Assembly (NCBI GenBank): GCA_036873755.1
Contig: JAVTVY010025197.1
Coordinates: forward strand, 1 to 64,000
Source: Hanleya hanleyi
Taxonomy: Eukaryota > Mollusca > Polyplacophora > Lepidopleurida > Hanleyidae
Direction of reading: 5' to 3'
DNA length: 64,000 nucleotides
Part shown: piece by piece, positions 1 through 37,200 of the stretch
Numbering within the stretch: the first letter of the stretch is position 1
How the letters are laid out: each line of letters starts with the position of its first letter
Translations under genes and position numbers: made by a program
Notes under the pieces: model-generated
What the model was told of the DNA's origin: nothing
Seen by the model: only the letters and a program-made list of their open reading frames with translations
The model's database searches: none

Positions 1-3000
1 CATCGATGAAGACATGAAAAACACTTTGTTCTCAATGGGTCATGGTGGGTTCATCGATGGACACATCAAAAATCTCTGTTCTTAAGGAATCATGATGGTT
101 CCATCGACGAAGACATGAAAGATGGACTCATCAAAATCTCTTTGTTCTCAAGGAATCAGGATGGTTCCATCGATGTACACATAAAAAGCCACTTGGTCAT
201 GGTGGGTTCATCGATGGACACATCAAAAATCTCTGTTCTCAAGGAATCATGATGGTTCCATCGATGAAGACATGAAAAACACTTTGTTCTCAATGGGTCA
301 TGGTGAGTTCATCGATGGACTCATCAAAGTCTCTTTGTTCTCAAGGATTCATGATGGTTCCATCGATGAAGACATGAAAAACACTTTGTTCTCAATGGGT
401 CATGGTGGGTTTATGATGGACTCATCAAATCTCTTTGTTCTCAAGGAATCATGATGGTTCCATCGATGAAGATATGAAAAACACTTTGTTCTCAATGGGT
501 CATGGTGAGTTCATCGATGGACTCATCAAAAATCTCTGTTCTTAAGGGATCATGATGGTTCCATCGATGAAGACATGAAAAAACACTTTGTTCTCAATGG
601 GTCATGATGTTTCCATCGATGTACACATGAAAATCCCCTTTGTTCTCAATTGGTCATGATGGGTTCATCGATGTACACATAAAAACCACTGTGTGCTCAA
701 GTGGTCATGGTGGGTTCATCGATGGACACATCAAAACCTCTCTGTTCTCAAACGGTCATGATGGTTCCATCGGTGTACACATAAAAACACTTTGTTCCCA
801 AGTGGTCATGGTGGGTTCATCGATGGACACATCAAAACCTCTCTGTTCTCAAGCGGTCATGATGGTTCCATCGGTGTACACATAAAAAAGCCACTTGGTC
901 ATGGTGGGTTCATCGATGGACACATCAAAAATCTCTGTTCTTAAGGAATCATGATGGTTCCATCGACGAAGACATGAAAGATGGACTCATCAAAATCTCT
1001 TTGTTCTCAAGGGATCAGGATGGTTCCATCGATGTACACATAAAAAAGCCACTTGGTCATGGTGGGTTCATCGATGGACACATCAAAAATCTCTGTTCTT
1101 AAGGAATCATGATGGTTCCATCGACGAAGACATGAAAGATGGACTCATCAAAATCTCTTTGTTCTCAAGGGATCAGGATGGTTCCATCGATGTACACATA
1201 AAAAGCCACTTGGTCATGGTGGGTTCATCGATGGACACATCAAAAATCTCTGTTCTCAAGGAATCATGATGGTTCCATCGATGAAGACATGAAAAACACT
1301 TTGTTCTCAATGGGTCATAGTGAGTTCATCGATGGACTCATCAAAGTCTCTTTGTTCTCAAGGATTCATGATGGTTCCATCGATGAAGACATGAAAAACA
1401 CTTTGTTCTCAATGGGTCATGGTGGGTTTATGATGGACTCATCAAAATCTCTTTGTTCTCAAGGAATCATGATGGTTCCATCGATGAAGACATGAAAAAC
1501 ACTTTGTTCTCAATGGGTCATGGTGAGTTCATCGATGGACTCATCAAAAATCTCTGTTCTTAAGGGATCATGATGGTTCCATCGATGAAGACATGAAAAA
1601 ACACTTTGTTCTCAATGGGTCATGATGTTTCCATCGATGTACACATGAAAATCCCCTTTGTTCTCAATTGGTCATGATGGGTTCATCGATGTACACATAA
1701 AAACCACTTTGTGCTCAAGTGGTCATGGTGGGTTCATCGATGGACACATCAAAACCTCTCTGTTCTCAAGCGGTCATGATGGTTCCATCGGTGTACACAT
1801 AAAAACACTTTGTTCCCAAGTGGTCATGGTGGGTTCATCGATGGACTCATCAAAACCTCTTTGTTCTCAAGGGATCAGGATGGTTCCAACGACTATTAAA
1901 GACATGAAAAAACCCGCTTTGTTCTCAAGGGGTCATGATGATTCCATCGATGTACACATGAAAATCCTCTTTGTTCTCAAGTGGTCATGGTGAGTTCATC
2001 GATGGACTCATCAAAACCTCTTTGTTCTCAAGGGATCAGGATGGTTCCATCGATGTACACATAAAAAGCCACTTGGTCATGGTGGGTTCATCGATGGACA
2101 CATCAAAAATCTCTGTTCTTAAGGAATCATGATGGTTCCATCGATGAAGACATGAAAAACACTTTGTTCTCAATGGGTCATGGTGAGTTCATCGATGGAC
2201 TCATCAAAATCTCTTTGTTCTCAAGGAATCAGGATGGTTCCATCAATGTACACATAAAAAAGCCACTTGGTCATGGTGGGTTCATCGATGCACACATCAA
2301 AAATCTCTGTTCTTAAGGAATCATGATGGTTCCAACGACTATTAAAGACATGAAAAAATCGCTTTGTTCTCAAGGGGTCATGATGATTTCATCGATGTAC
2401 ACATGAAAATCCTCTTTGTTCTCAAGGGATCAGGATGGTTCCATCGATGTACACATAAAAAACCACTTGGTCATGGTGGGTTCATCGACGGACACATCAA
2501 ACATCTCTGTTCTTAAGGAATCATGATGGTTCCATCGATGAAGACATGAAAAAACACTTTGTTCTCAATGGGTCATGGTGGCTTCATCGATGGACTCATC
2601 AAAAATCTCTGTTCTTAAGGGATCATGATGGTTCGATCGATGAAGACATGAAAAACACTTTGTTCTCAATGGGTCATGGTGGGTTCATCGATGGACTCAT
2701 CCAAAATCTCTGTTCTTAAGGGATCATGATGGTTCCATCGATGAAGACATGAAAAACACTTTGTTCTCAATGGGTCATGGTGAGTTCATCGATGATCTCA
2801 TCAAAATCTCTTTGTTCTCAAGGGATCAGGATGGTTCCATCGATGTACACATAAAAAAGCCACTTGGTCATGGTGGGTTCATCGATGCACACATCAAAAA
2901 TCTCTGTTCTTAAGGAATCATGATGGTTCCAACGACTATTAAAGACATGAAAAAATCGCTTTGTTCTCAAGGGGTCATGATGTTTTCATCGATGTACACA

Positions 3001-6000
3001 TGAAAATCCTCTTTGTTCTCAAGGGATCAGGATGGTTCCATCGATGTACACATAAAAAACCACTTGGTCATGGTGGGTTCATCGATGGACACACCAAACA
3101 TCTCTGTTCTTAAGGAATCATGATGGTTCCATCGATGAAGACATGAAAAAACACTTTGTTCTCAATGGGTCATGGTGGCTTCATCGATGGACTCATCAAA
3201 AATCTCTGTTCTTAAGGGATCATGATGGTTCGATCGATGAAGGCATGAAAAACACTTTGTTCTCAATGGGTCATGGTGGGTTCATCGATGGACTCATCAA
3301 AAATCTCTGTTCTTAAGGGATCATGATGGTTCCATCGATGAAGACATGAAAAACACTTTGTTCTCAATGGGTCATGGTGAGTTCATCGATGGACTCATCA
3401 AAATCTCTTTGTTCTCAAGGGATCAGGATGGTTCCATCGATGTACACATAAAAAAGCCACTTGGTCATGGTGGGTTCATCGACGGACACATCAAACATCT
3501 CTGTTCTTAAGGAATCATGATGGTTCCATCGATGAAGACATGAAAAAACACTTTGTTCTCAATGGGTCATGGTGGCTTCATCGATGGACTCATCAAAAAT
3601 CTCTGTTCTTAAGGGATCATGATGGTTCGATCGATGAAGACATGAAAAACACTTTGTTCTCAATGGGTCATGGTGGGTTCATCGATGGACTCATCCAAAA
3701 TCTCTGTTCTTAAGGGATCATGATGGTTCCATCGATGAAGACATGAAAAACACTTTGTTCTCAATGGGTCATGGTGAGTTCATCGATGATCTCATCAAAA
3801 TCTCTTTGTTCTCAAGGGATCAGGATGGTTCCATCGATGTACACATAAAAAAGCCACTTGGTCATGGTGGGTTCATCGATGCACACATCAAAAATCTCTG
3901 TTCTTAAGGAATCATGATGGTTCCAACGACTATTAAAGACATGAAAAAATCGCTTTGTTCTCAAGGGGTCATGATGTTTTCATCGATGTACACATGAAAA
4001 TCCTCTTTGTTCTCAAGGGATCAGGATGGTTCCATCGATGTACACATAAAAAACCACTTGGTCATGGTGGGTTCATCGATGGACACACCAAACATCTCTG
4101 TTCTTAAGGAATCATGATGGTTCCATCGATGAAGACATGAAAAAACACTTTGTTCTCAATGGGTCATGGTGGCTTCATCGATGGACTCATCAAAAATCTC
4201 TGTTCTTAAGGGATCATGATGGTTCGATCGATGAAGGCATGAAAAACACTTTGTTCTCAATGGGTCATGGTGGGTTCATCGATGGACTCATCAAAAATCT
4301 CTGTTCTTAAGGGATCATGATGGTTCCATCGATGAAGACATGAAAAACACTTTGTTCTCAATGGGTCATGGTGAGTTCATCGATGGACTCATCAAAATCT
4401 CTTTGTTCTCAAGGGATCAGGATGGTTCCATCGATGTACACATAAAAAAAGCCACTTGGTCATGGTGGGTTCATCGATGGACACATCAAAAATCTCTGTT
4501 CTTAAGGAATCATGATGGTTCCAACGACTATTAAAGACATGAAAAAACCGCTTTGTTCTCAAGGGGTCATGATGATTCCATCGATGTACACATGAAAATC
4601 CTCTTTGTTCTCAAGGGATCAGGATGGTTCCATCGATGTACACATGAAAAAGCCACTTGGTCATGGTGGGTTCATCGATGGACACATCAAACATCTCTGT
4701 TCTTAAGGAATCATGATAGTTCCATCGATGAAGACATGAAAAAACACTTGTTCTCAATGCGTCATGGTGGCTTCATCGATGGACTCATCAAAAATCTCTG
4801 TTCTTAAGGGATCATGATGGTTCGATCGATGAAGACATGAAAAACACTTTGTTCTCAATGGGTCATGGTGGGTTCATCGATGGACTCATCCAAAATCTCT
4901 GTTCTTAAGGGATCATGATGGTTCCATCGATGAAGACATGAAAAACACTTTGTTCTCAATGGGTCATGGTGAGTTCATCGATGGACTCAAGGAATCTGTT
5001 CTTAAGGGAACTTAAGGGATCATGATGGTTCGATCGATGAAGACATGGACTCAAGGAATCTGTTCTTAAGGGAACTTAAGGGATCATGATGGTTCGATCG
5101 ATGAAGACATGAAAAACACTTTGTTCTCAATGGGTCATGGTGGGTTCATCGATGGACTCATCCAAAATCTCTGTTCTCAAGGAATCATGATGGTTCCATC
5201 GATGAAGACATGAAAAACACTTTGTTCTCAATGGGTCATGGTGGGTTTATGATGGACTCATCAAAATCTCTTTTTTCTCAAGGAATCATGATGGTTCCAT
5301 CGATGAAGACATGAAAAACACTTTGTTCTCAATGGGTCATGGTGGGTTTATCGATGGACACATCAAAAATTTCTGTTCTTAAGGAATCATGATGGTTCCA
5401 TCGACGAAGACATGAAAGATGGACTCATCAAAATCTCTTTGTTCTCAAGGGATCAGGATGGTTCCATCGATGTACACATAAAAATCCACTTGGTCATGGT
5501 GGGTTCATCGATGGACACATCAAAAATCTCTGTTCTTAAGGAATCATGATGGTTCCATCGATGAAGAGATGAAAAACACTTTGTCCTCAAGTGGTCATGG
5601 TGAGTTCATCGATGGACTCATCAAAATCTCTTTCTTCTCAAGGAATCATGATGGTTCCATCGATGAAGACATGAAAAACACTTTGTTCTCAATGGGTCAT
5701 GGTGGGTTTATCGATGGACACATGAAAAATCTCTGTTCTTAAGGGATCAAGATGGTTCCATCGATGAAGACATGAAAAAACACTTTGTTCTCAATGGGTC
5801 ATGATGTTTCCATCGATGTACACATGAAAATCCCCTTTGTTCTCAATTCGTCATGATGGGTTCATCGATGTACACATAAAAACCACTTTGTGCTCAAGTG
5901 GTCATGGTGGGTTCATCGATGGACACATCAAAACCTCTCTGTTCTCAAGCGGTCATGATGGTTCCATCGGTGTACACATAAAAACACTTTGTTCCCAAGT

Positions 6001-7660
6001 GGTCATGGTGGGTTCATCGATGGATTCATCAAAACCTCTTTGTTCTCAAGGGATCAGGATGGTTCCATCGATGTACACATAAAAAAGCCACTTGGTCATG
6101 GTGGGTTCATCGATGGACACATCAAAAATCTCTGTTCTTAAGGAATCATAATGGTTCCAACGACTATTAAAGACATGAAAAAACCGCTTTGTTCTCAAGG
6201 GGTCATGATGATTCCATCGATGTACACATGAAAATCCTCTTTGTTCTCAAGTGGTCATGGTGAGTTCATCGATGGACTCATCAAAACCTCTTTGTTCTCA
6301 AGGGATCAGGATGGTTCCATCGATGTACACATAAAAAGCCACTTGGTCATGGTGGGTTCATCGATGGACACATAAAAAATCTCTGTTCTTAAGGGATCAT
6401 GATGGTTCCATCGATGAAGACATGAAAAACACTTTGTTCTCAATGGGTCATGGTGAGTTCATCGATGGACTCATCAAAATCTCTTTGTTCTCAAGGGATC
6501 AGGATGGTTCCATCGATGTACACATAAAAAACCACTTGGTCATGGTGGGTTCATCGATGGACACATCAAAAATCTCTGTTCTTAAGGAATCATGATGGTT
6601 CCATCGACGAAGACATGAAAGATGGAGTCATCAAAATCTCTTTGTTCTCAAGGGATCAGGATGGTTCCATCGATGTACACATAAAAATCCACTTGGTCAT
6701 GGTGGGTTCATCGATGGACACATCAAAAATCTCTGTTCTTAAGGAATCATGATGGTTCCATCGATGAAGACATGAAAAACACTTTGTTCTCAATGGGTCA
6801 TGGTGGGTTTATGATGGACTCATCAAAATCTCTTTGTTCTCAAGGAATCATGATGGTTCCATCGATGAAGACATGAAAAAACACTTTGTTCTCAATGGGT
6901 CATGGTGGGTTCATCGATGGACTCATCAAAATCTCTGTTCTTAAGGGATCATGATGGTTCCATCGATGAAGACATGAAAAACACTTTGTTCTCAATGGGT
7001 CATGGTGGGTTCATCGATGGACTCATCAACAATCTCTGTTCTTAAGGGATCATGATGGTTCCATCGATGAAGACATGAAAAACACTTTGTTCTCAATGGG
7101 TCATGGTGGGTTCATCGATGGACTCATCAAAAATCTCTGTTCTTAAGGGATCATGATGGTTCCATCGATGAAGACATGAAAAACACTTTGTTCTCAATGG
7201 GTCATGGTGAGTTCATCGATGGACTCATCAAAATCTCTTTGTTCTCAAGGGATCAGGATGGTTCCATCGATGTACACATAAAAAAGCCACTTGGTCATGG
7301 TGGGTTCATCGATGGACACATCAAAAATCTCTGTTCTTAAGGGATCATGATGGTTCCATCGATATACACATAAAAACCACTTTGTTCTCAAGTGGTCATG
7401 GTGGGTTCATCGATGGACACATCAAAGCCTCTTTGTTCTCAAGGGGTCATGATGGTTCTATCGATATACACATAAAAACCAGTTTGTTCTCGAGTAGTCA
7501 TGATGATTTCATCGATGTATACGTAAAACCACTTTGTTGGTCATGGTGGGTTCATCGATATACACATGAAACCATCCTTGTTCCCAAGGTGTCGTTATTG
7601 TTCCATCGATGTACACATGAAAGGATCATCGTGGTTCTAACGATTCACACATCCAAACAT
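1..7660. repeat. 51-bp satellite array
   Basis: A tandem array of a ~51-bp monomer fills this stretch and runs off the left edge. Each monomer has a GGTCATGATGGTTC-like head, the 8-bp palindrome CATCGATG, an ACACAT(A/C)AAAA segment and a TTTGTTCTCAAG tail. Dimers are spaced 102 bp (for example the CAATGGGTCAT at 291 and 393). Higher-order duplication is visible: a diagnostic TTCATCGACGGACAC variant recurs at about 2481 and 3475 (~994 bp), and a GATGTTTCCATCG block recurs near 605, 1622 and 5797. Because 51 is a multiple of three, short open frames with a 17-residue period occur on the plus strand, but TAA in the common GTTCTTAAGG variant stops them often. I read it as non-coding satellite DNA. 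Confidence 0.95.
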
Positions 7661-16430: not shown

Positions 16431-16436
16431 ATAACC
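16431..16436. repeat. Target-site duplication, left
   Basis: The hexamer ATAACC lies directly outside the left end of the 16437-23292 element and is repeated exactly at 23293-23298. A 6-bp duplication is the family rule for Maverick/Polinton integration. Confidence 0.9.
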
Positions 16437-18402
16437 AGTAGTAGGGAAAGGACGGGACGGCTCAAGTTTTCCAGGGAGGTAACTCTTGGTTCCCCTTTTT
16501 CCGCCAGGGGGCGCCACCAGTCCCGTATGACGTCACTTCCGGTCTGGGTGAATGAAGCGTGACCTGTGAACATGCCGTATGACGTCACTTCCGGTCTGGG
16601 TGAATGGCGCGTGACCTGTGAACATGATAGGATATGTACTGACCTGTCTGTGGGTTTTTTCCACAATGTCGTTCACCTCCGTGTCTCTTCGGTCAGGGAG
16701 AATGGAGCGTGACCTGGGAACATGATAGGAGATGTACTGACCTGTCTGTGGGTTTTTTCCACCATGTCGTTCACCTCCGTGTCTTTTCGGATGGGGTTTT
16801 TCCCGCCAGAATTTCGCTGTCGTCTGGTTGGGGTTGTCACGTGCCGAACACCTGGCTCCCCGAATTGCAACATTGTTGCACGTTCGCTACAATGTTGCAT
16901 TTCCCGCCAGAATTTCGCTGTCGTCTGCTTGGGGTTGTCACACGTGCCGAACACCTGGCTCCCCGAATTGCAACATTGTTGCACGTTCGCTACAATGTTG
17001 CGAAGATGTCACGGAGGTGCCCCAAGATGTCACGGAGGTGCCCGAAGAGACACGGAGATCCCCGAAGGGGGCAAGAGGGGTCCCTAGTGTACCGATTGGG
17101 TCGTATGAGGTACAATGTGAAGCATTCGTGAAGGGGCATCCGATGGGCTGGGTGTGGGGTTGGAATATGGTCATTCTGCGCATGCGCGGTACACCAAGGG
17201 TATGGAATAGACGTTTTGGGGTCTAGGGGAGCCACTAGTGGGTCGATGGAGTCGTATGAGGTATCAATGTGAAGCATTCGTGAAGGCGCATCCGACGGGC
17301 TGGGTGTGGGGTTGAAATGTCGTCATTCTGCGCATGCGCGGTAGACCAAGGGTATGGAAATAGACGTTTTGGGGTCTAGGTGGGTCCCTAATGGGCCGAT
17401 GGGGTCGAGTGAGGTATCAATGTGAAGCCTATGTGAGGGGGCATCACACTGGGTGGATGTGGGGTCGGAATAGCGTCATTCTGCGCATGGGCAATAGAGA
17501 AAGTGTATGAAAATAGACGTTTTGGGATGTAGGTGAGCCCCTAATGAGCCGATGGAGTTGAGTGAGGTATCAATGTGAAGCCTATGTGAGGGGGCATCCG
17601 ATTGGACTAGGGTCTCGGCCTTTGTCCACATTCTGCGCATGCGCAGACAGGGAATTCTGGGAAAAGGGTGTGGAGATAGACGTGTTAGGGTTTAGGTGAG
17701 CCCCTAATGATCCTATGGTGTCGTATGGGGTCTTATTTTGAAGCTGTCGTGAGGGAGCATCCGCCTGGGCTAGTGTGTCTTTCGTTGTGAATAGTCTGCG
17801 CATGCGCAGTCTGGCCGTAGTATAGAAATAGACGTGTTGAGGTTTAGGTGGGCCCCTATTGGGCCGCTGGGATCGAGTGAGGTATCAATGTAAGGCAGTC
17901 GTGAGGGAGTATCCAACGGGCTGGATGTGACGTGGAACTGACGTCATTCTGCGCATGCGCAGTAGAGAAAGTGTATGGAATACACGATGGAGTCGTATGA
18001 GGTCTTATGTTGAAGCTCTTGTGAAGCAGCATCCGATTGGACTCAGGGTTCGTCCGTGTTCAAGGGTCTGCGCATGCGCAGTCTGGTTGTAGCATAGAAA
18101 GCAGGCATGTTGGGGGATGCGTGGAAGTGTGTGTGTGTGACCCACAACTAGGGGTCCCTGGTTGGGGTTGGGTGGTGGTGGTGTGGGTTCTGCGCACAGA
18201 CGTCACTTCCGGGTTTCACTAAAACTACCTTCCAACACAGAAGAGTTCCAATGTTCCCCCTTAGACGTAGGGTCCGGATGTTCAACATCCGGGGTTTTTC
18301 CGGCCCGGCCCCACCCCGCTCCGCCCCGCCCCGGCCGCAGCGCGCGCGGCCGCAGCGCGCGCGCGGATTACTCCGGCCGCGCGCGCGCGGGTTATCCGGA
18401 AG
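16437..18402 (+). repeat. Left ~2-kb terminal inverted repeat
   Basis: This is the inverse complement of 21300-23292. From the outside in it holds: AGTAGTAGGG; CRE/ETS-like sites (TGACGTCACTTCCGG at 16528 and 16580); two ~105-bp copies of a block with TTTCCCGCCAGAATTTCGC and the GCAACATTGTTGC near-palindrome (16795-17000); seven tandem ~152-bp units; a further GACGTCACTTCCGG near 18200; and a CG-alternating, GC-rich inner end (18300-18402). The right copy has only one GCAACATTGTTGC block and eight tandem units, so the two arms have diverged. Confidence 0.9.
17100..18110 (+). promoter_or_regulatory. Array of NRF-1-like palindromes, left arm
   Basis: The core TGCGCATGCGC(A/G) occurs at 17177, 17329, 17482 (mutated to GGGC), 17634, 17797, 17950 and 18069. 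Spacings are mainly 152-153 bp, with one of 163 and one of 119. The full form TGCGCATGCGCA is a perfect 12-bp palindrome and fits the established NRF-1 consensus YGCGCAYGCGCR. Every unit places it within a similar context (GTCATTC before it, a TAGACGTTTTGGGG-like segment after it). Binding and promoter activity are inference. Confidence 0.7.
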
Positions 18403-18584
18403 TGCGCGGCATCACCGGAAGTCCGCGGATGAATGTCGGGTCAAAAGGTCAAAGGTCACATCCAGGTCAAAAGGTCTCCCTTTCGGCAAGGTTCGGCAAC
18501 AATGTTGCGGCATCGATATACAGAGCTTGAACACAAAAAGGGGATTGTAAATTAAACTGGGAAGGATGGGCAGGTCCATTTGGA

Positions 18585-18742
18585 CCAATCAGCGGTCGAG
18601 AAAAAGAGCCAATGAGCGATCGTAAAAGAACCAATGGACGGGTACTAGAATTTCGCTCACGTCTGCGCCTACATCCGGGTACTAGAAGGCTTTCGCCTAC
18701 GTCCGCGCCTACATCCCGGCACTTCTATGTAGGTGTATAAAA
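18585..18742 (+). promoter_or_regulatory. CCAAT/TATA promoter of the capsid transcript
   Basis: Three CCAAT boxes (18585-18589, 18609-18613, 18631-18635) precede a TATA box, TATAAAA, at 18736-18742, about 150 bp downstream of the first box. This is the usual RNA polymerase II order. Transcription would start near 18765 and read through the capsid and protease genes to the AATAAA at 21119. Between the boxes lies a short direct repeat built on GGGTACTAGAA and CGCCTACATCC. Confidence 0.7.
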
Positions 18743-18764
18743 GTGGGAATATTTAGGGCATTGC

Positions 18765-19088
18765 TGCATTCATTGGCCTGACCAGCCTGAGCCTGCCTGA
18801 CCAGACTGAGCCTATCTGACGAGAGAAGCTACTTGCCTGAGCCTCACCAGCCTGAGCCTGCCTCACCGGAGCTATACCATGAGACGTGGAGAAGATTTTC
18901 CAGGGGATCCAGGAGCGCCTCCGGCGCTGTAATCTTTCTTGTTGTTGCTCTCTTTTTGCACAAACCCATCAGAATAGTACGTATCACGGACTACACCCGT
19001 AGAGCTACGTCTAGGCGCGCATGTGTGACATGGTCTATAAAACACGTGCCTCTGGATCTCACACCTTCATTTCTACGGTTGCAGAGCC
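18765..19088 (+). other. Leader region with small open frames
   Basis: The stretch between the predicted start site and the capsid gene begins with imperfect repeats of CCTGACCAGCCTGAGCCTG. The first ATG (18879) opens only 17 codons, ending at 18932 (reads MRRGEDFPGDPGAPPAL). It could be a leader ORF, a remnant of a small virion protein or chance; I cannot decide. Pyrimidine-rich sequence ending in CATCAG near 18970 resembles a splice acceptor, so a spliced leader is possible. Confidence 0.35.
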
Positions 19089-20491
19089 ATGACGGACATC
19101 CATCCCTATGCGACTCGCATTTTACAGCATGCGACATTTGGACCTGACCATAAATACGAGGGTCAGACAGAGTGTGTGTCATTGACCGTTCGTCATTGGT
19201 TCGTCCAACAGTGAATTTGATTTGTGGACCGTCCCGCCCACACAGACCAGTGCCGAACAAGGATTATGGGTGGAGCATCTCCCGCTCTCCAGCATCAACG
19301 AAACAGGGCCCATCGAGTTCACCATCAGTAATGCGGATACGGCCTATGTGGATTTAGCCCATACATACTTGTATGTGAAAGCCAAGATCGTCAATGGACA
19401 ATCGTCAATCGTCCAGAATCGTCGACCAAGCAACGGTGGGCCCGACGAATCTCTGGCTGCACTCGATGTTTCAACAGGTGGATATATTTCTCAGCGACAA
19501 ACTCATCAGTGACTCGACCAACACGTACCCCTATCGAGCCTACATCGAGACGCTGTTGTCGCATGGGCGAGAGGCTAAAAAATCTCAACTGACAGCCGCT
19601 TTATTCTACCAGGACACAGCCCAGCATATGGGCGTAGAGAACGACAATGTGGGATATAACAAACGGAAGGCTTTGACCGCGAACGGCGTCTCGGTGGATC
19701 TCATGGATCGATTGCACGCAGACATCTTCATGCAAGACCGGTACCTGTTGAACAAGATCCCCATCAAAATCCGACTGATACGGGCGCCTCCGACCTTCGC
19801 CTTGATGGCCACTAACGTAGACGGGCATGCAGCTGACTATAAGATTGTCATCCAAGACGCAGTCCTGTATGTCCGAAAAGTGAAACCGAATCCAGCCGTT
19901 CAATTGGGACACCTCAAAGCCTTGGAAACAAAACCAGCCCAGTACCCTATCCGACGTGTGCAAACCAAAGTGTTCTCTGTGTCTGCTGGAAATATGAGCG
20001 CCAACAAAGAAAACCTGTTCCTGGGGGAACTACCCAAGCGATTGATCCTGGCCTGTGTGGAAAATACCAGTTTCAGCGGAGCCTACCCAGAGAACCCGTT
20101 TGACTTTAAACATTTCGGCATCAATTTTGTGGCCCTGCATGTGGATGGACAACAGGTCCCAGCCACGGCCTTAACACCGAACTTTGGGCGCGCGAATTTC
20201 ATTCGAGCCTATCAGAGCCTGTTTACAGCCACCGGTCAAATCAACCAGGACGAAGGGAATATGATCAGTCGGGAGGACTACGCGAACGGATACACGTTGT
20301 TCTGTTTCGATTTGACCCCCACCTTAGAGAACGCCCATCAGCTGGCCCTCGCCAAGCAAGGCAGTTTACGGTTGGAGATCCACTTTGCACGAGCTCTCCG
20401 GAGCACCGTCAATGTGATCTGCTACGCCGAGTTTGACAACATCATTCAAGTGGACAAGGCGCGCAACGTCCTGTGTGACTTTGCCACCTAA
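19089..20491 (+). pseudogene. Maverick/Polinton major capsid protein (F54H12.2-like), frame-broken
   Basis: The product would be the virion's major capsid protein. The 3' part is a clean 365-codon frame ending at TAA 20491, with the family's conserved WLHS, STNTYPYRAYIE and LTAALFYQDT segments near its N-terminus and a long hydrophobic, beta-rich body. The N-terminal ~60 residues lie in another frame from about 19210 (PPTQTSAEQG, GPIEFTIS, YVDLAHTYLYVKAKI), so a frameshift falls near 19395-19430 within a microrepeat of ATCGTC. A second break lies upstream: the ATG at 19089 opens a 41-codon frame stopping at 19214, and the frame preceding SEFDLW has no ATG after the TGA at 19183. Total length (about 425-460 residues) is normal for the family. 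It sits 1 bp upstream of the protease ATG. Family assignment comes from recalled motifs; a profile search would confirm it. Confidence 0.82.
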
Positions 20492-20492
20492 C

Positions 20493-20965
20493 ATGGATAC
20501 AGACCAGATAACCACCGTGCTGGAGAATGACCCAGAGACACGTATGGTCTTTCAAGGGGTGTTCGCCCGAGATGTGTTCCCATTATACCGTGTGTATCCT
20601 GCTGCTTACGTTCTCAACACGGACCCGATGGATCGGCCCGGTGAACATGGGTGGGCGTGTATTTGACAGAACAGCAGGGCGAATACTTTGACCCTTACGG
20701 CCTGCCACCCCTCCATCCCGATTTAACAGACTTCATGGATCAAGGCACAGAGACGTGGTGTTGGAACAGTCAAACGTTGCAAAGCCTGACCAGTAGCGTG
20801 TGCGGACAATATTGCTTGTTTTACCTGTACCATCGATTCCGGGGAAGACCCTTATCTACCATCGTACAGATGTTTGACGAGTACCCCAAGGCCGAGGACC
20901 GAGATGTACTCGTATATGACTGGGCCGCCCATCATTTCAATGTACAAGCCCCGTTCTGGGCATAA
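20493..20965 (+). pseudogene. Adenain-type cysteine protease, frame-broken
   Basis: This maturation protease (C5/adenain family) would cleave capsid precursors. It starts at ATG 20493, one base after the capsid stop, and ends at TAA 20965, about 157 residues. The first frame covers about 57 residues, reaching GEH, the position of the catalytic His, then runs into TGA at 20664. The second frame carries EYFDPYG (the acidic member of the triad) and QSLTSSVCGQYC, with Gln and Cys seven residues apart as in adenovirus protease (Gln115/Cys122). A one-base loss next to the His codon explains the break. All active-site residues are therefore present, but not in one frame. Only this protease and the capsid gene occupy the element. 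Confidence 0.85.
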
Positions 20966-21085
20966 GTTCTTTCAATGTACAAGCCCCCCTGTTCTGGGCT
21001 TAAGTTCTTTCAATGTTCAAGCCCCCTGTTCTGGGCTTAAGTTTTATCGATTTCAATGTACAAGCCCCCTGTTCTGGGCTTCAGT
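20935..21085 (+). repeat. Tandem copies of the protease 3' end, hairpin-forming
   Basis: The segment TTTCAATGTACAAGCCCC...TTCTGGGC(T/A)TAAG begins inside the last codons of the protease (20935) and recurs at 20970, 21008 and 21051, period 35-43 bp. The later copies can pair AAGCCC with GGGCTT around an 8-base loop. The array lies between the stop codon and the poly(A) signal, so a transcript would carry three stem-loops in its 3' UTR. Confidence 0.8.
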
Positions 21086-21118
21086 TTTCACGTGGTTGTT
21101 CTCACGTTGTTGCTGTTG

Positions 21119-21124
21119 AATAAA
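21119..21124 (+). terminator. Polyadenylation signal of the element
   Basis: AATAAA followed by an A-rich run, 150 bp past the protease stop. It is the only clear signal downstream of the two genes. Confidence 0.6.
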
Positions 21125-21299
21125 AAAACAAAATGAGATCTCACCCCAAAAAACCCTGTCTTGTGTGTTTTCTATATGAGCATAATGCATGAAGGCTATA
21201 CCAGACATGTGGGGATTCGGTGAAACTGGCTTCGAACACCGTGGAGAAAGTAGCCCATCGGTGGCCTAGGATAATCCGAAATTCACCCGCGCAGACGTG

Positions 21300-23292
21300 C
21301 GGCCGGATAAGGCGCGCGCGCGCGCTGCGGCCGGGGTAACCCGCGCGCGCGCGCGCGCGCTGCGGCCGGGGCGGGGCGCGGCGGGGCCGGGCCGGGCCGG
21401 AAAAAACCCAGATGTTGAACATCTGGACCCTACGTCTAAGGGGGAACATTGGAACTCTTCTGTGTTCGAAGGTAGTTTTAGTGAAACCCGGAAGTGACGT
21501 CTGTGCGCAGAACCCACACCACTACCACCCAACCCCAACCAGGGACCCCTAGTGGTGGGTCACACACACACTTCCACGCATCCCCCAACATGCCTGCTTT
21601 CTATACTACGACCAGACTGCGCATGCGCAGACCCTTGAACACGGACGAACCCTGAGTCCAATCGGATGCTGCTTCACAATAGCTTCAACATAAGACCTCA
21701 TACGACTCCATCGGACCCATAGCGACCCATGTCGGCGCCAAAATGTCTATTTCCATACACTTTCTCAACTGCGCATGCGCAGAATGACGTCAGTTCCACG
21801 TCACACCCAGCCCGTTGGATACTCCCTCACGACTGCTTTACATTGATACCTCACTCGATCCCATCGGCCCAATAGAGGCCCACTTAAACCTCAACACGTC
21901 TATTTCTATACTACGGCCAGACTGCGCATGCGCAGACTATTGACAACGAACGACACACTAGCCCAGGCGGATGCTCCCTCACGACAGCTTCAAAATAAGA
22001 CCTCATACGACACCATAGGATCATTAGGGGCTCACCTAAACCCTAACACGTCTATTTCCACACCCTTTTCCCAGAATTTCCTGTCTGCGCATGCGCAGAA
22101 TGTGGACAACGGCCGAGATCCTAGCCCAATCGGATGCCCCCTCACATAGGCTTCACATTGATACCTCACTCAACTCCATCGGCTCATTAGGGGCTCACCT
22201 ACATCCCAAAACGTCTATTTTCATACCCTTTCTCTATTGCGCATGCGCAGAATGACGATATTCCGACCCCACATCCACCCAGTGGGATGCCCCTCACATA
22301 GGCTTCACATTGATACCTCACTCGACCCCATCGGTCCATTAGGGACCCACCTAGACCCCAAAACGTCTATTTCCATACGCTTGGTCTACCGCGCATGCGC
22401 AGAATGACGATATTTCAACCCCACACCCAGCCCGTCGGATGCGCCTTCATGAATGCTTCACATTGATACCTCATACGACTCCATCGACCCACTAGTGGCT
22501 CCCCTAGACCCCAACACGTCTATTCCATATCCTTGGTGTACCGCGCATGCGCAGAATGACCATATTCCAACCCCACACCCAGCCCATCGGATGCCCCCTC
22601 ACATAGGCTTCACATTGATACCTCACTCGACCCCATCGGTCCATTAGTGGCTCCCCTAGATCCCAAAACGGCTATTTCCATACCCTTGGTCTACCGCGCA
22701 TGCGCAGAATGACCACATTCCAACCCCACACCCAGCCCATCGGATGCCCCTTCACGAATGCTTCACAATGATGCCCCATACGACCCAATCGGTACACTAG
22801 GGACCCCTCTCGCCCCCTTCGGGGATCTCCGTGTCTCTTCGGGCACCTCCGTGACATCTTGGTGCACCTCCGTGACATCTTCGCAACATTGTAGCTAACG
22901 TGCAACAATGTTGCAATTCGGGGAGCCAGGTGTTCGGTACGTGACAACCCCATGCAGACGACAGCGAAATTCTGGCGGGAAAAACCCCATCCGAAAAGAC
23001 ACGGAGGTGAACGACATCGTGGAAAAAACCCACAGACAGGTCAGTACATCTCCTATCATGTTCCCAGGTCACGCTCCATTCTCCCCGACCGAAGAGACAC
23101 GGAGGTGAACGACATTGTGGAAAAAACCCACAGACAGGTCAGTACATATCCTATCATGTTCACAGGTCACGCGCCATTCACCCAGACCGGAAGTGACGTC
23201 ATACGGGACTGGTGGCGCCACCTGGCGGGAAAAGGGGAACCAAGAGTTACCTCCCTGGAAAACTTGAGCCGTCCCGCCCTTTCCCTACTACT
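21300..23292 (-). repeat. Right ~2-kb terminal inverted repeat
   Basis: This is the inverse complement of 16437-18402. From the inside out it holds: an alternating CG block (21305-21365) and GC-rich tract; GGAAGTGACGTC near 21490; eight tandem ~152-bp units; one GCAACA...TGTTGC block near 22890; TGACGTCA at 23194; and the terminal CCCTACTACT. It is slightly more regular than the left arm, with all eight units present. Confidence 0.9.
21600..22710 (-). promoter_or_regulatory. Array of NRF-1-like palindromes, right arm
   Basis: (T/C)GCGCATGCGCAG cores lie at 21618, 21770, 21923, 22086, 22238, 22390, 22542 and 22695, spacings of 152-153 bp with one of 163. The same 163-bp unit appears in the left arm in mirror position (17634 to 17797), confirming common descent. 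The outer three begin CGCGCATGCGCA, still within the NRF-1 consensus. Confidence 0.7.
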
Positions 23293-23298
23293 ATAACC
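23293..23298. repeat. Target-site duplication, right
   Basis: ATAACC, an exact repeat of 16431-16436, directly outside the terminal CCCTACTACT. Confidence 0.9.
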
Positions 23299-24734
23299 TC
23301 AAAGAATGTATATGTCTAAACCAAACATCTTCATAGCATAATTTAGTTGTGGAGATGGGCAACGTCCTTCAGTTGGCCTGAATAAATACGGACATTTTGC
23401 AACGCGAAATGCTTCAGTCGCCCAGATTCTCTTAGAATGAACTGTATCTAGCTGAATAAACAGAATAAATATGCCCAAATGTGAAATTGATTAAGGTTTT
23501 TTTTTCAATTGATGGATATACAGTTATTCAAGATACATTCAAAGAAGAAATGCCAATGGTCGGCAATGACAGCCATGTTAGATAAATGGTCCGAACAAGG
23601 CTGATTCTACATTTCTCCTATGACGTATTGGCATATGGAACAACGTGTCCCACACACAACTACAATTACTTTGAATGAGGACTTGCATGAATCACATTAA
23701 CATGTGCTCAGGACGAGCTATTGACCGGTAAACTAACGTATAATTACAATAAATATAATGATTTTTTTGTTAAATTTTCAGTTCACAATATTCGTTTGTT
23801 TTCTTATTTAATCGTTAATTTGCATCTAAGCATTAATTATTATATATATTTAATCGCACCCATAATTACAGATAATTTTGAGTTAGGGATGAGTGGGTGA
23901 GTTGGACTTTTTCCATCACTTTTTGGTCATAGCACGATGTTGTCTACTTGTTCCAGGACACCAGAGTTCCCGCAATTCATATTATCCTGGACATCAATCA
24001 GCCCAGCCAGTCACCCATCCAAGTCCATCTTCACAACGTCAAGGTTCTATTTGTGAGCCAAAGGCGAACAACGTCAAGATTTCCATTTGTGAGCCAATTA
24101 AAGGCGAACCCTTGACCATCTTGCATAGCAGACCGCGTTCCGCCCACATTCCAGTTATGTGACCTAGAAAAACTGCGCTGATGGTAAAATACGTTAAGGT
24201 TTTACTTTCTGTGCTAAACTATTCGCTGATACCGAATGTAAAATATTTAATCCAGCATGCATAACAATAAAATATTAATGGATAGATCAGTGACATTTTG
24301 TAGAATTCCGTGCTTTATTTCCGCCAATTCAAGTCCTTCAGTGGGAAGGTGAGTCGGATACACTGACATCGCGGACCGCCTTTAAAGTTTCAGTGTTTCC
24401 TACATTTGCCTGGCTTGTTGAACGTTTGATAGTAGATGAATGGGTTTATTTTTTCTTCAAATAGATTTTGTTTAAAACTATATTTCCTTTATATTTATTA
24501 ATGTTCATGGTTGTTGAAAATGTGCGTGTTCATCTGCCACCGGGTATCCCACAAGTTATGGTGTTTTCGAAGCTCGTGAGATTAGTACAACAGTGTTTTT
24601 AATTTAGTTTACTCGGAGTTTCGAGTGCCATCGGCACATGGATCAAGGATTAAGGATCGTCACTATCGCCATGGTCGCGGTAAACAAGTGATATGATTGG
24701 TCAATATATGCAGAATGTTGCTTTACAGCTGAAC
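23299..24734. other. No gene recognised
   Basis: AT-rich host DNA. The only pattern is a short direct repeat near 24030-24110 built on AACGTCAAG, ATTTGTGAGCCAA and AAGGCGAAC. An 89-codon frame at 23893-24162 overlaps it and shows no recognisable motif. Confidence 0.5.
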
Positions 24735-25226: not shown

Positions 25227-27275
25227 TTAAAGAGTTTCTCTCTGGGGTTGTAATCTCGTGCATTGCAGGAGAAAGTGCTTCTCATCTTCAACAACCTTAC
25301 AGGTGAGACAGAGCCGTTGTTCACGAGGTATATTATGATAGCGCCCCTTTTCAATTTCCAATTTGTGGGCACTAATTCTGAGCCGTGTCAGGGATACACG
25401 ATGGTGTCTATTTGGTATAGAAAAAATTGCATCCCCACCTCCGAGTGTTTCCTTGAAAGTACTGTAAGTCTCCAGTTTATTACATTCAGAGATCTTACTT
25501 TTCCAGAGTGTAACAAATATATTAGTTAAAGTTTTCCGAATAAAGTTTAGGGTTGATTTTGGGGAATTACAACCTTGGTTCTCCCACAGATATGCACAAC
25601 CAGTCACGGAGAGAGTTTTTCTGATGAAGGTAACCCAGTTACAACAGTTTGGGCTTCTAGCAGCTTCAATTTGTTCGAGGTAGGCCTTATGGATCAAAGT
25701 ACTGGGGCTGGATGATACAATATGTAGAAAGAAGCTGATACTATTAACAATTGCGGCAACCTTCAGAGGAGTTCTTCCTAGTTCACCAAGTACCGCCATG
25801 TTGACAGATCTGGAGTGTACTCCAAGTATCTGTTTACAATATCTCATGTGGACAGCTTCCACCTCATTAACCTTGAGCAAAATATCTGTAATTTCTTTAT
25901 CTTTATCTATGTAACCTGCCCACACTTCTGAACCATACAGTAAAATGGGTTGTATTATACAATCAAACAGTTTACATGATAGACCAATATTAATTTCATT
26001 CGGGTTAACAGCATTTCTCAGAGCAAAAATAGCTTTTCTAGCTGTACAAGATAAGTTTGTAATGGCTTGGTTAAAGTGGCCATTACTATGTAATATAACC
26101 CCAAGGTATTTGTATCTGTTAACACATTTGACCTGTTCACCATTTATACTGAAATAATGGTTAATTGACTTATTAGTCCCAAAAGCTACCACTTTGGTCT
26201 TGCCTAAGTTAACAGATAGGTCCCATTTGTTAATAAACATACCTAATTTGTTAAGTTTTCTTTGTAGATCTTCTTTATCTAGCGACAACAAGACAATATC
26301 ATCGGCATAGGCCAAACTATGTACAGGCTCATCCCACAGGACTGGGGACTTGTCAGTGTCCAATTCAGTCAATAAATAATTAATATATATATTAAACAGT
26401 ATTGGGCTTAACACGTTGCCCTGATGGACACCACGTGTAATAGGAAAACTGTCGCTTAGACAGGTTAATGACTTAACTCTAGCATTACTACATGTATACA
26501 TGGACTTAATAATGCTATAAATGTTACCAGTTATACCAGCTTTCTGCACTTTAAGGAATAAGGCGTCATGCCAAACCGAATCAAAAGCTTTGGAAAAATC
26601 GACAAAGCTAGCATATAATTTGTTTTTCCTACCTGTATACTTATCTATTAAAGTTTTCATAACAAAGATATGATCCGTTGTTCTACAGCCTTTCTTAAAT
26701 CCTATTTGAGACTTTGATATCAGATCATTTTCTTCTGCAAAATTGATAATGCTCGTGTTGAGAATAGAACAGAACAGCTTCCCTAGGCAGCTGTTGAGTG
26801 TTATACCCCGGAAATTATTGGTATCTGATGAACTACCGCTTTTGTGTATTGAAACAATCAGACCAGTTGACCATGCCTGAGGGAAATGACCAGAGAGCAG
26901 GATTCTGTTGAAGAGTAGTAATAGAATGTTCTTAATTAATGGGTATGCGGCTTTTACCATTTCGTTACTAATTGAATCATATCTACTGGATTTTCCATTC
27001 TTTAAGAGTTTCACGGCATCTGAAATTTCCTTTGCTACTATGGGCAAGTTCAGGTTATCGTCCAAAGGTGGAAATGTACTACTGTTTTCCAAATCTGACA
27101 ATTCCTCCCTCACTTCATCACTGCCCGACTGCATATTTGCAGGCTTAGAGCTATGCAGTGACTTGTAATGGTCAAACCATGTACTAATATCAATATTTTG
27201 GGCAGAGTTCCCTTTGCTCTCTTTTTTCAGCTTCTTGGCAGTGTTCCAGCAAGATGCAGGGTCACTTTGAGACAC
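25227..27275 (-). pseudogene. LINE reverse transcriptase ORF (partial)
   Basis: An open frame of 682 residues; the frame stays open on its 5' side to about 27430, so 27275 is not a real start. It would copy the LINE RNA at the target site. Visible motifs: FRGITLNSCLGKLF (about residues 155-168), GFKKGCRTTDHIF (192-204), FVDFSKAFDS with the first catalytic Asp (D226), RGVHQGNVLSP (281-291) and YADD (323-326). A C-terminal CLTC...H4C zinc-like motif lies near the end. The catalytic core looks intact, but the ends are in other frames, so I treat the element as dead. The clade (CR1, jockey or RTE-like) cannot be fixed by eye. Confidence 0.85.
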
Positions 27276-27610
27276 AGCATTGAGCTCGTTTAAAAGTGTC
27301 TGTCGGTACTGTGTGCTGCACCGCTTAGTTTTAATTCTGTACTCCTTATGTTTTCTGAAAAAAAATTTCTTCAGGTTGGGATCATCACTGTTGCGATTAT
27401 AAGCATTATTAAGGCTCCGAGTTCCTTATTTAGAGACTTACACTCTGTGTTGTACCATGGCTTGTTAACTGGATTTGGCACCAGTGATTTGCTCCTTGTA
27501 TTAACTTATTTTTTAGTAATTTTTATAATCAAATATAATCAAATATTTCCTTAATACAAGAAAACTCCCCATAAAGGTCTCCTAGTGTCCGTCCATTCAA
27601 AATCCTACAT

Positions 27611-34200: not shown

Positions 34201-37200
34201 TTCTGATATGTACCAGTAAATGCGCTTTATCATTAATTCAATTTAATAGTGGTAAAGTGGCAACAATAATAATGTGCATTCATTCTTGAACAGGTAAGTG
34301 GGCAACATTAGTCATCTGCATTTCATATACCGCTAAGTTAGCAACATCAGTAATCCTTCTTATACCAGTAAGTTGGCAACATCAGAAATCTACAGTCATT
34401 CTTATACCAGCAAATGGGTAACACCAGTAACCTAATGCATCCTTATACCGATAAGTTGGCAACATCAGTATTATCTGCAAGCAGTCTTATACCATGTATA
34501 CTGGAAAGTGGGCAATATCTATAACCTACTTTCATTTGTGTACTGTTAGGTGGGCCTGCAACTTCAGTAATCTGGTGATATTGGTAATCTATCATCAAGA
34601 TTCATCAGTAATGCCACAATCATTTCCATCAGGGAACAGACATCAGTAATCTGCATTGATTTTCATCACCAACAGACCTATCTGTACGTACAGTTTCATT
34701 GGTGACAACCATCAGTAATCTGCATTCATATTATCCGTGATCTGCAGTCATTTCACCAGTGATTGACAACAGTAATCTACATTAATTTTAATTGTGGACA
34801 GACATCAGTAATCTACATTCATTTTAATTGGGGACGGACATCAGTAATCTACATTCATTTTAATTGAGGACAGACATCAGTAATCTACATTCATTTTAAT
34901 TGGGGACGGACATCAGTACCGGTAATCTACATTCATTTTAATCAGGGACAGACATCTGTAATCCAGGCCTTCAAGTGCCTCCTATATTTTCCTATATTTT
35001 TGAGTCATTCCTATATTTTCCTATATTTTACTCAAAACCTCCTATATTTCCTATATTTTGACTTTTTCTCATGAAAACTTTCATCAATGCTCTGTCATGA
35101 GTCAAACTGGCATGAGGAAATACATTTCAGCAAAAAAATTTCGACAAAATTTCGGCAAATATGAAAACATTTCAATCTCTCTATGCTGAATCAAATAACA
35201 GAACAGGTCACCTGAAAAACCACCACTATGACCGCATTCAGTGAAAGTTATTTGATTAAAGTGATCATAAGCCCGCAAGTAAAGTTTCCATCAAATGAAA
35301 GACCATTGCCAATAGTGTGGGAAAATATTTATTGTAATTTTTTACGATTTTATTACACAGAGTAAACTGCAAATAAAGCATGGTTTTCTATGGTGGTCTG
35401 TGGCAATCATATCTAGGTCCAGTGACGTCACACTGCCTTAATACATATATTTCAAACTTTGTATGCACTTTCCAATGCTTGATTCAAGCTTAAGGTGTGT
35501 ATACTTTGAGTTTCAACACAGACTCACTGTTCCAATGTGCATGTTTCAGCAAAAATCAGGGAAATTAAATGCAAGATTCAAATTGACTTGACACTTATGA
35601 GTTACCATCTCTCAGATTTTGGTGAAACATTCACATTGGAACAGTGAGTCTGTGTTGAAACTCAAAGTATGCACACCTTAAGCTTGAATCAAGTATTGGA
35701 AAGTGCATGCAAAGTTTGAAATATATGTATTTAGGCCGTGTGACATCACTGGACCTAGATATGACATCCTCGCGAGCCAGTGTATCAATCGATAGGCTAC
35801 GATCGGTACACTGGCTTGGTTAGTTACTGATAGCAGTTCTTGATATAAATAGCTGGATGGGTATCCGCTAAACTGAACCAATCAGTAAGCGCGCTGAAGC
35901 AGCTCATCAGGCCAATCCGCAGCGAGGTTTGAGATTTGACAGGTTTGAATTTCATCGCCGGCCAGACTACCTTTGAAGTTAGGCTGAAATCGACATCGGC
36001 TGTCAAAGCATAAACCGCAGCCTTCAGATATCAAAACAACCACTGGGGATGAAATGTACGAGATTGTGTAATAAATGCAACACCTTGAGAACTCATCCGA
36101 ATCATCAAAAATGTCCAGGTAAACCCTCTTCGAGGATTTAGGGGTTACCTGGACGTGTGCAGATGAGATATGATTGCAACAGACCACCATAGAATACCAC
36201 GCTTTATTTGCAGTTTACTCTGTGTAATAAAATTGTCAAAAAATTACAATAAATATTTTCCCCACACTGCAATGGTCTTTCATTTGATGGAAACTTTACT
36301 TGAGGGTTTACGATCACTTTAAACACCAGAAAACTACCAAGTTTGGCACATACAATGTGGTACAGACAGTCTTACACTGCTTTAATTCCTATATTTTCCT
36401 ATATTTTATTCAGAAAATTCCTATATTTCTCCAAATTTCCTCCTATATTTTCTCCTATATTTTCACTGTGAGCCACTTGAAGGCCTGGTAATCTACATTC
36501 ATTTTAATCAGGGAACAGACATCAGTAATCTGCATTCATTTTAGTCGATGACAGACATCAGTAATCTGCATTCATTTCATCAGGGACAGACATCAGTAAT
36601 CTACATTCATTTAATCGGGGACGGACATCAGTAATCTACATTCACTTAATCAGTGATAGACATCAGTAATGTGCATTCATTTCATCAGTGACACACATCA
36701 GTAATCTGCATTCATTTTAATCGCAGACAGGCTTCAGTAATCTGCATTAATTTTTATCAGGCATACATCAGTTATATAAATTCATTTTAATTGGGGACGG
36801 GCTTAAGCAACTTACATTTATTTTCATCAGGGACAGACTTCAATATTCATTTCATTAGGGACAACCATCAATAATCTGCATTCATTTTCATCACTGACAA
36901 ACATAATCTGCGTTCATTTCATCAGCGAAAGACATCAATAACCTGCATTTGTTTAATCAGTGACAGTCATCAATAATCTGCATTCATTTCATCAGTGACA
37001 GACATCAATAATCTGCATTCATTTCATCAGTGACATCAATAATCTGCATTCATTTCATCAGGGACATACATCAATAATCTGCATTCATTTCATCAGTGAC
37101 ATCAATAATCTGCATTCATTTCATTTGTGACAGACATCAATAATCTGCATTCATTTCATCAGTGACGTCAATAATCTGCATTCATTTCATCAGGGACAGA

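Follow-up and report, generated by a model that had tools for sequence, protein, structure and literature searches.

A 6.9-kb Polinton insertion in Hanleya hanleyi as a probable deletion derivative of a polymerase-less Polinton family

Does a Polinton/Maverick insertion that has nothing but a capsid and a protease gene between long inverted repeats belong to a mobile class of its own, or is it a single decayed copy? The question is raised by a locus in a 64,000-nucleotide stretch of Hanleya hanleyi DNA (contig JAVTVY010025197.1; here, the window). A preliminary description had suggested that the element may be a satellite-like or interfering form that makes its own shell and borrows replication and integration from a helper. 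Our analysis indicates that the window element is very probably a decayed copy that descends by internal deletion from a Polinton family with many members but no polymerase (family B). This family would in turn rely on a second one (family A), whose PolB would replicate it in trans.

The insertion and its two broken genes

The insertion is 6,856 bp long (16437-23292) and carries the marks of Polinton/Maverick integration, namely a perfect 6-bp target-site duplication (TSD) and AGT-repeat ends inside inverted repeats. Its termini are AGTAGTAGGG...CCCTACTACT, of the AGTAGT type. The terminal inverted repeats (TIRs) measure about 1.96 kb and are 96.9% identical over 1,798 aligned bases (1,756/1,812 identical in a separate comparison), and the two arms differ by unit-length indels within tandem repeats of ~152 bp. 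The matching ATAACC hexamers, the terminal sequences with intact ends and the ~2-kb inverted repeats had all been described correctly. The features are as follows.

16431-16436, no strand: left target-site duplication ATAACC (sequence)
16437-18399, + strand: left TIR, ~152-bp internal repeats with TGCGCATGCGCA-like palindromes
18400-19088, + strand: leader; 18730-19088 is common to 39 other scored places (best 40 of 3,434)
18736-18742, + strand: TATAAAA in the leader (read by eye)
18879-18926, + strand: relic of the first 16 PolB codons of family A, then L-stop
19089-19135, + strand: start (~15 codons) of an accessory gene that encodes ~108 aa in the parent family; 279 bp are absent here
19133-19202, + strand: segment placed after the accessory gene in relatives
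19203-19204, no strand: main deletion junction; the part lost starts behind the accessory gene and reaches approximately MCP codon 12
19205-20491, + strand: major capsid protein (MCP) gene, start missing, two frames (19210-19407, 19394-20491)
20493-20965, + strand: adenain-like cysteine protease (PRO) gene, two frames (20493-20663, 20651-20965)
20935-21088, + strand: four tandem copies of ~38-43 bp, beginning inside the protease 3' end
21119-21124, + strand: AATAAA polyadenylation-type signal (read by eye)
21340-23292, - strand: right TIR, inner edge approximate
23293-23298, no strand: right target-site duplication ATAACC (sequence)

Both gene assignments of the preliminary description, a Maverick-type capsid and an adenain-type protease, are borne out. 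The MCP is of Polinton type, with 865 protein matches (best 58% identity), and its model (365 aa, mean pLDDT 79.8, pTM 0.83) has many strands; against the PDB, the MCP profile gave a single weak match, to a major capsid protein (E 0.92). The adenain-like PRO had 8 protein matches, and a profile made from the window piece and eight relatives matched ASFV S273R (3.9e-12) and adenain 1avp (4.8e-4) in the PDB. Pfam assigned no family to four window pieces from MCP and PRO, PHROGs none to two pieces, and Rfam none to any part of the window.

We searched the window by tblastn with 19 Polinton ORFs, 10 of them from our main reference gene set, the genome-contig locus L001, and 9 from L002 and L003. 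Only MCP and PRO were recovered. Protein-primed PolB gave no tblastn match in the window, where just the 16-codon relic is seen, and rve integrase and packaging ATPase gave none in the window copy. A lone match of the L003 MCP at 23953 (E 0.064) is regarded as chance. The earlier count of just two genes is therefore right as far as tblastn matches go, but neither gene is open: MCP and PRO are each split over two frames, the MCP lacks its start, and the leader of ~0.8 kb between the left TIR and the MCP holds relics of two other genes. The copy probably does nothing now. An apparent new gene in the 5' region of the window element was rejected; this region corresponds to the left leader of family B and contains the PolB relic and the start of the ~108-aa accessory gene.

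In the accessible text of PMC8097293, intact vertebrate Mavericks are 12.7-24.6 kb long and carry PolB, ATPase, integrase and capsid genes between TIRs of 46-1,447 bp. Shared with the window element are the (AGT)2//(ACT)2 ends, 6-bp target duplications, adjoining MCP and PRO and protein families; the element differs in its length of 6.9 kb, its ~1.96-kb TIRs and its two broken genes, and the 12.4-kb family B copy described below differs in lacking PolB.

Siblings, short forms and the deletion junction

If the two-gene layout were that of a mobile family, other copies should share its junction, and we searched the 2.48-Gb genome for them. A match across 18420-21300 was given by the window alone, and in 39/39 cases the other long matches start at 19205 or 19206 (best 40 of 10,024 first-look candidates scored). 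Of the other leader matches, 39 in number, none extends across the junction (best 40 of 3,434 scored). No sibling with the window's junction was thus present among the scored candidates (best 40 per search), from which a diverged sibling could escape. Of 39 MCP loci found, 29 were read; 28 of these have the minor capsid gene upstream and 26 have PX. The proposed two-gene mobile family is not upheld, and the outcome is the one that the preliminary description had foreseen for a single decayed Polinton: because other copies hold the missing genes and no scored candidate shares the junction, the layout is a one-off deletion product, and on present evidence a mobile class of two-gene elements does not exist.

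Two further short derivatives have intact ends and perfect TSDs. One (C27785) is 6,045 bp long, is flanked by GACCAG and carries PX-MCP-PRO; the other (C8333) is 5,581 bp long, is flanked by TATGAG and carries a partial minor capsid gene followed by PX-MCP-PRO. Each of the three short forms, the window element included, has a junction of its own. As such capsid-end derivatives recur, these forms may conceivably have some advantage or mobility.

In the window copy, the sequence right behind the accessory gene is joined to about codon 13 of the MCP; the MCP start was lost through this founding deletion itself. Only MCP and PRO survived because both genes adjoin the right end. The deletion may have arisen when protein-primed replication switched templates, or else through gap repair, and could have preceded or followed insertion.

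Family B and its polymerase-bearing relative

The lack of PolB in the parent family B is read from one copy followed end to end, itself decayed, and from the spacing in four others. That copy (C46875:135438-147868) is 12.4 kb long with a perfect TSD, GGGCTC, and is ordered left repeat, leader with PolB-start relic, accessory gene, ORF183, integrase, ATPase, two small ORFs, minor capsid, PX, MCP, PRO and right repeat. PolB gave no match across its four stretches, no ORF in it exceeds 314 aa, and no replication gene was seen. Its integrase, ATPase and MCP are each matched in pieces, and a stop lies in the minor capsid range. In the B leader, the first 16 PolB codons of family A survive in shortened form.

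Families A and B are 94.4% identical over the outer 432 bp and 89% in the leader. PolB marks lie on at least 74 contigs and the dispersed B marks on at least 112, with overlap on 2, where more than 12 kb separates the two kinds of mark and their strands are opposite (best 40 per list). Two long A copies (C16829 and C38163) measure 14.3-17.1 kb by their paired ends, and the ~10 kb behind PolB is room for a full gene set. A third A copy (C12237) is 7.7 kb long and has no such room. It was rejected as proof of a polymerase-only element; it seems to be a deletion form of A, because in 39/39 other places the similarity to it ends at PolB query base 620.

Selection was analysed on MCP and PRO. The MCP frame reaches at least 430 aa in 14/29 loci and the PRO frame at least 150 aa in 27/29 (stop to stop). 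Private changes are mostly replacements in 13 open MCP copies (60 N, 30 S, pN/pS 0.59) and neutral-like in 27 PRO copies (29 N, 8 S, pN/pS 1.0). Shared changes in MCP lean toward silent (4 N, 5 S, pN/pS 0.24) and those in PRO more weakly so (6 N, 3 S, pN/pS 0.56), both being too few to weigh.

Alternative readings and comparison with known systems

The intact ends, the TSD, the presence of two genes only and the existence of two further capsid-end short forms could speak for a functional two-gene satellite class, in which selection keeps MCP and PRO while replication and integration are borrowed. We consider this highly improbable, given the MCP start lost at the junction, the frame breaks in both genes, and three short forms with three junctions and no sibling among the best 40 scored. 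A full B copy might also have landed at ATAACC and lost its middle later. The TSD and repeats would look alike under either order, and none of the scored candidates proved to be a sibling; nothing direct speaks against it, although the three short forms with intact ends would suggest deletion during replication. We hold the chances of this order of events to be even.

Family B itself can be read in three ways. It could be a passive non-autonomous derivative that is mobilised through its ends alone, its capsid and integrase genes being relics without a role, as the 15/29 MCP frames that are broken or fall short of 430 aa and the private MCP and PRO changes would suggest; the open frames in 14/29 MCP and 27/29 PRO copies argue the other way, as does the silent lean of the few shared changes, and we think this reading rather unlikely. 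It is more doubtful still that A and B together make up one split (bipartite) Polinton, with PolB and accessory genes on A and integrase, packaging ATPase and virion genes on B, the two sharing ends and each needing the other. In that case one PolB and one packaging system would serve both, as in segmented viruses, and the window element and the 6.0- and 5.6-kb forms would be deletion products of the B half. The B copy without PolB, the similarity of the A and B ends and leaders, and the two-contig overlap of their marks agree with a split; however, the long A copies leave room for a full gene set, and the 7.7-kb copy without it seems to be a deletion form. Likelier than a split, and to our judgement about evenly balanced, is that B is a satellite without a polymerase, one that makes a shell and depends on a complete relative. 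Replication in trans would then come from the PolB of co-resident A, which shares the outer ~430 bp and the leader. The satellite first suggested for the window element fails there, since other copies hold the missing genes, no scored candidate shares its junction and the founding deletion took the MCP start; a weaker form of it, own shell with borrowed replication, fits the 12.4-kb B copy beside A.

Virophages have their own capsid and replication genes and are parasites of giant viruses. Like these and other satellites, B would have its own capsid and depend on another element for part of its replication, but it would rely on a relative with the same ends rather than on a giant virus. Bidnaviridae are ssDNA viruses with a two-segment genome and a parvovirus-type capsid, whereas A and B are integrating transposons. 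If A and B were split, the likeness would lie in one PolB that serves several linear segments whose ends resemble each other (PMC4061559). Polinton-like viruses, according to the accessible text of PMC11071308, have a double jelly-roll MCP and encode other replication proteins, while PolB and rve integrase are missing from most of them; B would share the MCP type and the absence of PolB, but its copy retains rve integrase and shows no replication gene, its largest ORF being 314 aa. In the literature searched (including the accessible text of PMC8097293, PMC6431247, PMC10294476 and PMC11071308) we found no description of a Polinton that has integrase and capsid genes but lacks PolB, a weak negative with most subscription papers outside its scope. 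Single-protein and profile scans of viral contigs gave no confirmed relatives; genome contigs gave five related loci, all in bacterial MAG records, which are probably animal contamination.

Taken on its own, the window element is ordinary decay. Family B, if our reading is true, is a Polinton that lost its polymerase, kept its integrase and full shell set, and dispersed beside A with near-identical ends; it would represent an animal-type shell-making satellite, or genome splitting, among Polintons. With A and B, a single genome offers a concrete candidate pair of helper and satellite in which to ask whether, and for what, Polinton capsids are used.

Structure and gene content of the window element

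The window element is a 6,856-bp insertion with the termini AGTAGTAGGG...CCCTACTACT, flanked by ATAACC hexamers and bounded by inverted repeats of about 1.96 kb (96.9% identity over 1,798 aligned bases); the hexamers, ends and ~2-kb repeats of the preliminary description are all present at 16431-23298. The features of the window are:

195-7538, 36489-39609 and 40324-41758: long tandem arrays (units of 51/101 bp, 35 bp and 26 bp)
16431-16436 and 23293-23298: ATAACC target-site duplication (TSD)
16437-18399 and 21340-23292: inverted repeats
19210-19407: N-terminal part of the major capsid protein (MCP), in a different frame (tblastn)
19394-20491: 365-aa frame, Polinton MCP
20493-20663 and 20651-20965: adenain-like protease (PRO), split over two frames
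25227-27425 (-): 732-aa open frame, putative non-LTR reverse transcriptase (resemblance by eye only)

Tandem units of about 152 bp occur in both arms, and indels of unit size distinguish one arm from the other. Fifteen TGCGCATGCGCA-like palindromes (at most one mismatch) occur in the window against 0.03 expected, all of them within these repeats. We take TGCGCATGCGCA, arrayed in both arms, to be the NRF-1 consensus, and the five copies of TGACGTCA in the arms to be CRE/ATF sites; that host factors use them is a guess. G+C is 47-53% across the element versus 35-44% in the rest of the window (2-kb steps). The element shares end motif and duplication length with vertebrate Mavericks, which have an (AGT)2//(ACT)2 motif and a 6-bp target duplication (PMC8097293).

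The MCP frame has 865 protein matches (best 58% identity), and in a tree with 120 listed matches it clusters with five database proteins (support 0.97; 52-54% identity); named relatives are chiefly from molluscs, a tubeworm and echinoderms. The second PRO piece, used with eight relatives as a profile against the PDB, matched ASFV S273R (E 3.9e-12) and adenain (E 4.8e-4). A tblastn search of the 64-kb window with a set of 19 Polinton reference ORFs yielded no further Polinton genes; the loci L001, L002 and L003 that supplied these ORFs, like L004, are animal-type Polinton contigs in bacterial MAG records, presumably host contamination. The element had been described as holding just two genes: only MCP and PRO are indeed found, but each is broken into two frames. 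By eye, the stretch from the upstream stop to conserved MCP sequence has no in-frame start codon, and therefore a normal shell protein was probably never made from this copy.

Deletion junction and short derivatives

The central part of the element (18420-21300) served as query against the 2.48-Gb assembly (52,793 contigs). Among the best 40 of 10,024 candidates, only the window itself matched over the full length, and all 39 other long matches (93-98% identity) start at 19205 or 19206. With the leader (18730-19300; best 40 of 3,434), the 39 other places align from 18730 to about 19135, none continuing into MCP, and in 12 listed rows about 19133-19202 resumes some 280 bp downstream. The window copy is thus missing two stretches: 279 bp that make up most of a ~108-aa accessory gene, and all sequence from directly after that gene to about MCP codon 12. 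A mobile two-gene family had been proposed; no sibling with this junction appeared among the 40 places scored per search, and the window element, judged from these alignments, is a one-off decayed copy.

Of 39 other MCP loci, 29 were read with flanks of up to 1.5 kb. Upstream of MCP, a minor capsid gene is present in 28 and PX, the gene between minor capsid and MCP, in 26; L045 lacks both, L046 is rearranged, and PX was not seen within the flanks of L064. Stop-to-stop frames reach at least 430 aa for MCP in 14 loci and at least 150 aa for PRO in 27. Eight of the 39 (C17738, C8329, C28395, C13096, C13620, C6375, C40568, C41608) have an inverted part of the left leader directly after PRO, an arrangement that resembles a copy of the left end placed at the right one.

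Two further short elements, C27785:4031-10075 (TSD GACCAG; PX-MCP-PRO) and C8333:5122-10702 (TSD TATGAG; partial minor capsid, PX, MCP, PRO), have junctions different from each other and from that of the window; the C27785 junction was found once only (best 40 of 2,779 scored). These three independent losses, each of which keeps both ends, show that capsid-end short forms recur (n=3), the right-hand genes surviving because they adjoin the right repeat.

The parent family B

The B copy C46875:135438-147868, read as four adjoining pieces each analysed separately, is 12,431 bp long (TSD GGGCTC; repeats 97.9% identical) and encodes, in order, leader, accessory gene, ORF183, integrase (rve, E 1.1e-10), ATPase, two small ORFs, minor capsid, PX, MCP and PRO; leader and accessory gene align to locus L068 at 90%. 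PolB was not found in the four pieces, where the longest ORF is 314 aa, nor, in the 1.5 kb of sequence read beyond the match, at any of nine B leader loci. The copy is decayed, with integrase, ATPase and MCP each matched in pieces and a stop within the minor capsid range. Its layout agrees with the left end-to-MCP spacing of C9729 and C14977 (8.76 and 8.49 kb; about 8.55 kb in C46875) and the leader-to-PX spacing of C12963 and C14168 (5.2 and 5.3 kb; about 6.0 kb); in C15358, tandemly repeated, end-to-MCP is only 5.3 kb.

Some places duplicate one insertion (C28899 has the flank of C46875's right end, and C41452 and C26967 have a flank in common), so the number of places does not equal the number of insertions. 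On C15358, C22063 and C16829, elements or their capsid ends are duplicated in tandem, with shared flanks where these were read. The accessory protein (L068:1860-2183; nine loci, L067-L075) has 68-108 aa, 108 in six loci, with a hydrophobic C-terminal segment in most; that of L068 has no Pfam match.

The polymerase-bearing family A and its tie to B

PolB lies 0.74-0.94 kb inside six family A ends (L009, L013, L020, L021, L022, L034), of which L021 and L022 are both on C16829 with a common flank. A lengths estimated from paired ends are 17.1 and 14.3 kb on C16829, where both share the TSD CACGCC and the flank, and 15.9 kb on C38163 (left flank outside the sequence read). A 7.7-kb A copy, C12237 (flanks CTTCTC/GTTCTC, one mismatch), was read except for 1,995 bp in the middle of PolB and 520 bp close to the right end; it holds PolB and a CARD-type gene assigned through 94% similarity to L008. 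It also looks like a deletion form, because all 39 other places among the best 40 stop matching it at position 620 of the PolB query. In this copy A seems to have a left-hand counterpart of the short forms.

The inward CARD-domain gene at A's non-PolB end (L008:2473-2892, C17181; Pfam E 1.8e-15) encodes a domain of apoptosis/immune-signalling type; ends L014, L016 and L019 are 90-94% similar. Another element's end has a RING-finger-like gene (L028:716-1039 (-), C38163; C3HC4_3 26.4 bits, below the cut-off of 27), with a Polinton-type integrase about 150 bp outside that element.

The outer 432 bp of C12237 and C46875 are 94.4% identical, and the leaders of L020 (A) and L068 (B) 89%. In five of six A ends the PolB frame opens with the 16 residues MRRGEDFPGDPGAPPA and continues (L034 has two substitutions); these residues recur in the window and at seven of the nine B leader loci, two of them with one substitution, and are followed there by leucine and a stop; two of the nine lack an exact string match, and C46875 has a shorter variant. 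Because B leaders retain this PolB start, we infer that B derived from a PolB-bearing form. In the window (18879-19100), a GT at about 18929 and a CAG at about 19083, placed by eye, could splice the relic in frame onto the accessory gene, in which case the B accessory protein would have PolB's first 16 residues.

The two PolB searches together hit 80 places, spread over 74 contigs, and the three B searches hit 112 contigs (best 40 per list); only C14251 and C23173 overlap, their marks more than 12 kb apart on opposite strands. A's protein-primed polymerase may copy B by acting on the common ends, deletions would come about through template switching, and B's integrase and ATPase would serve B itself. 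Changes in MCP (13 open B copies; private 60 N/30 S, shared 4 N/5 S) and PRO (27 copies; private 29 N/8 S, shared 6 N/3 S) are a weak guide to selection on the B capsid genes, compatible with recent use or with drift. Repeat-arm divergence is 2.1-3.2% in seven elements (two being one duplicated insertion), similar in A, B and short forms, and gives no age in years because of gene conversion and unknown rates.

The novelty lies in a Polinton family that carries integrase and shell genes, has no polymerase and coexists with a likely helper. If that helper is without shell genes, the A/B pair would be something beyond a Polinton variant.
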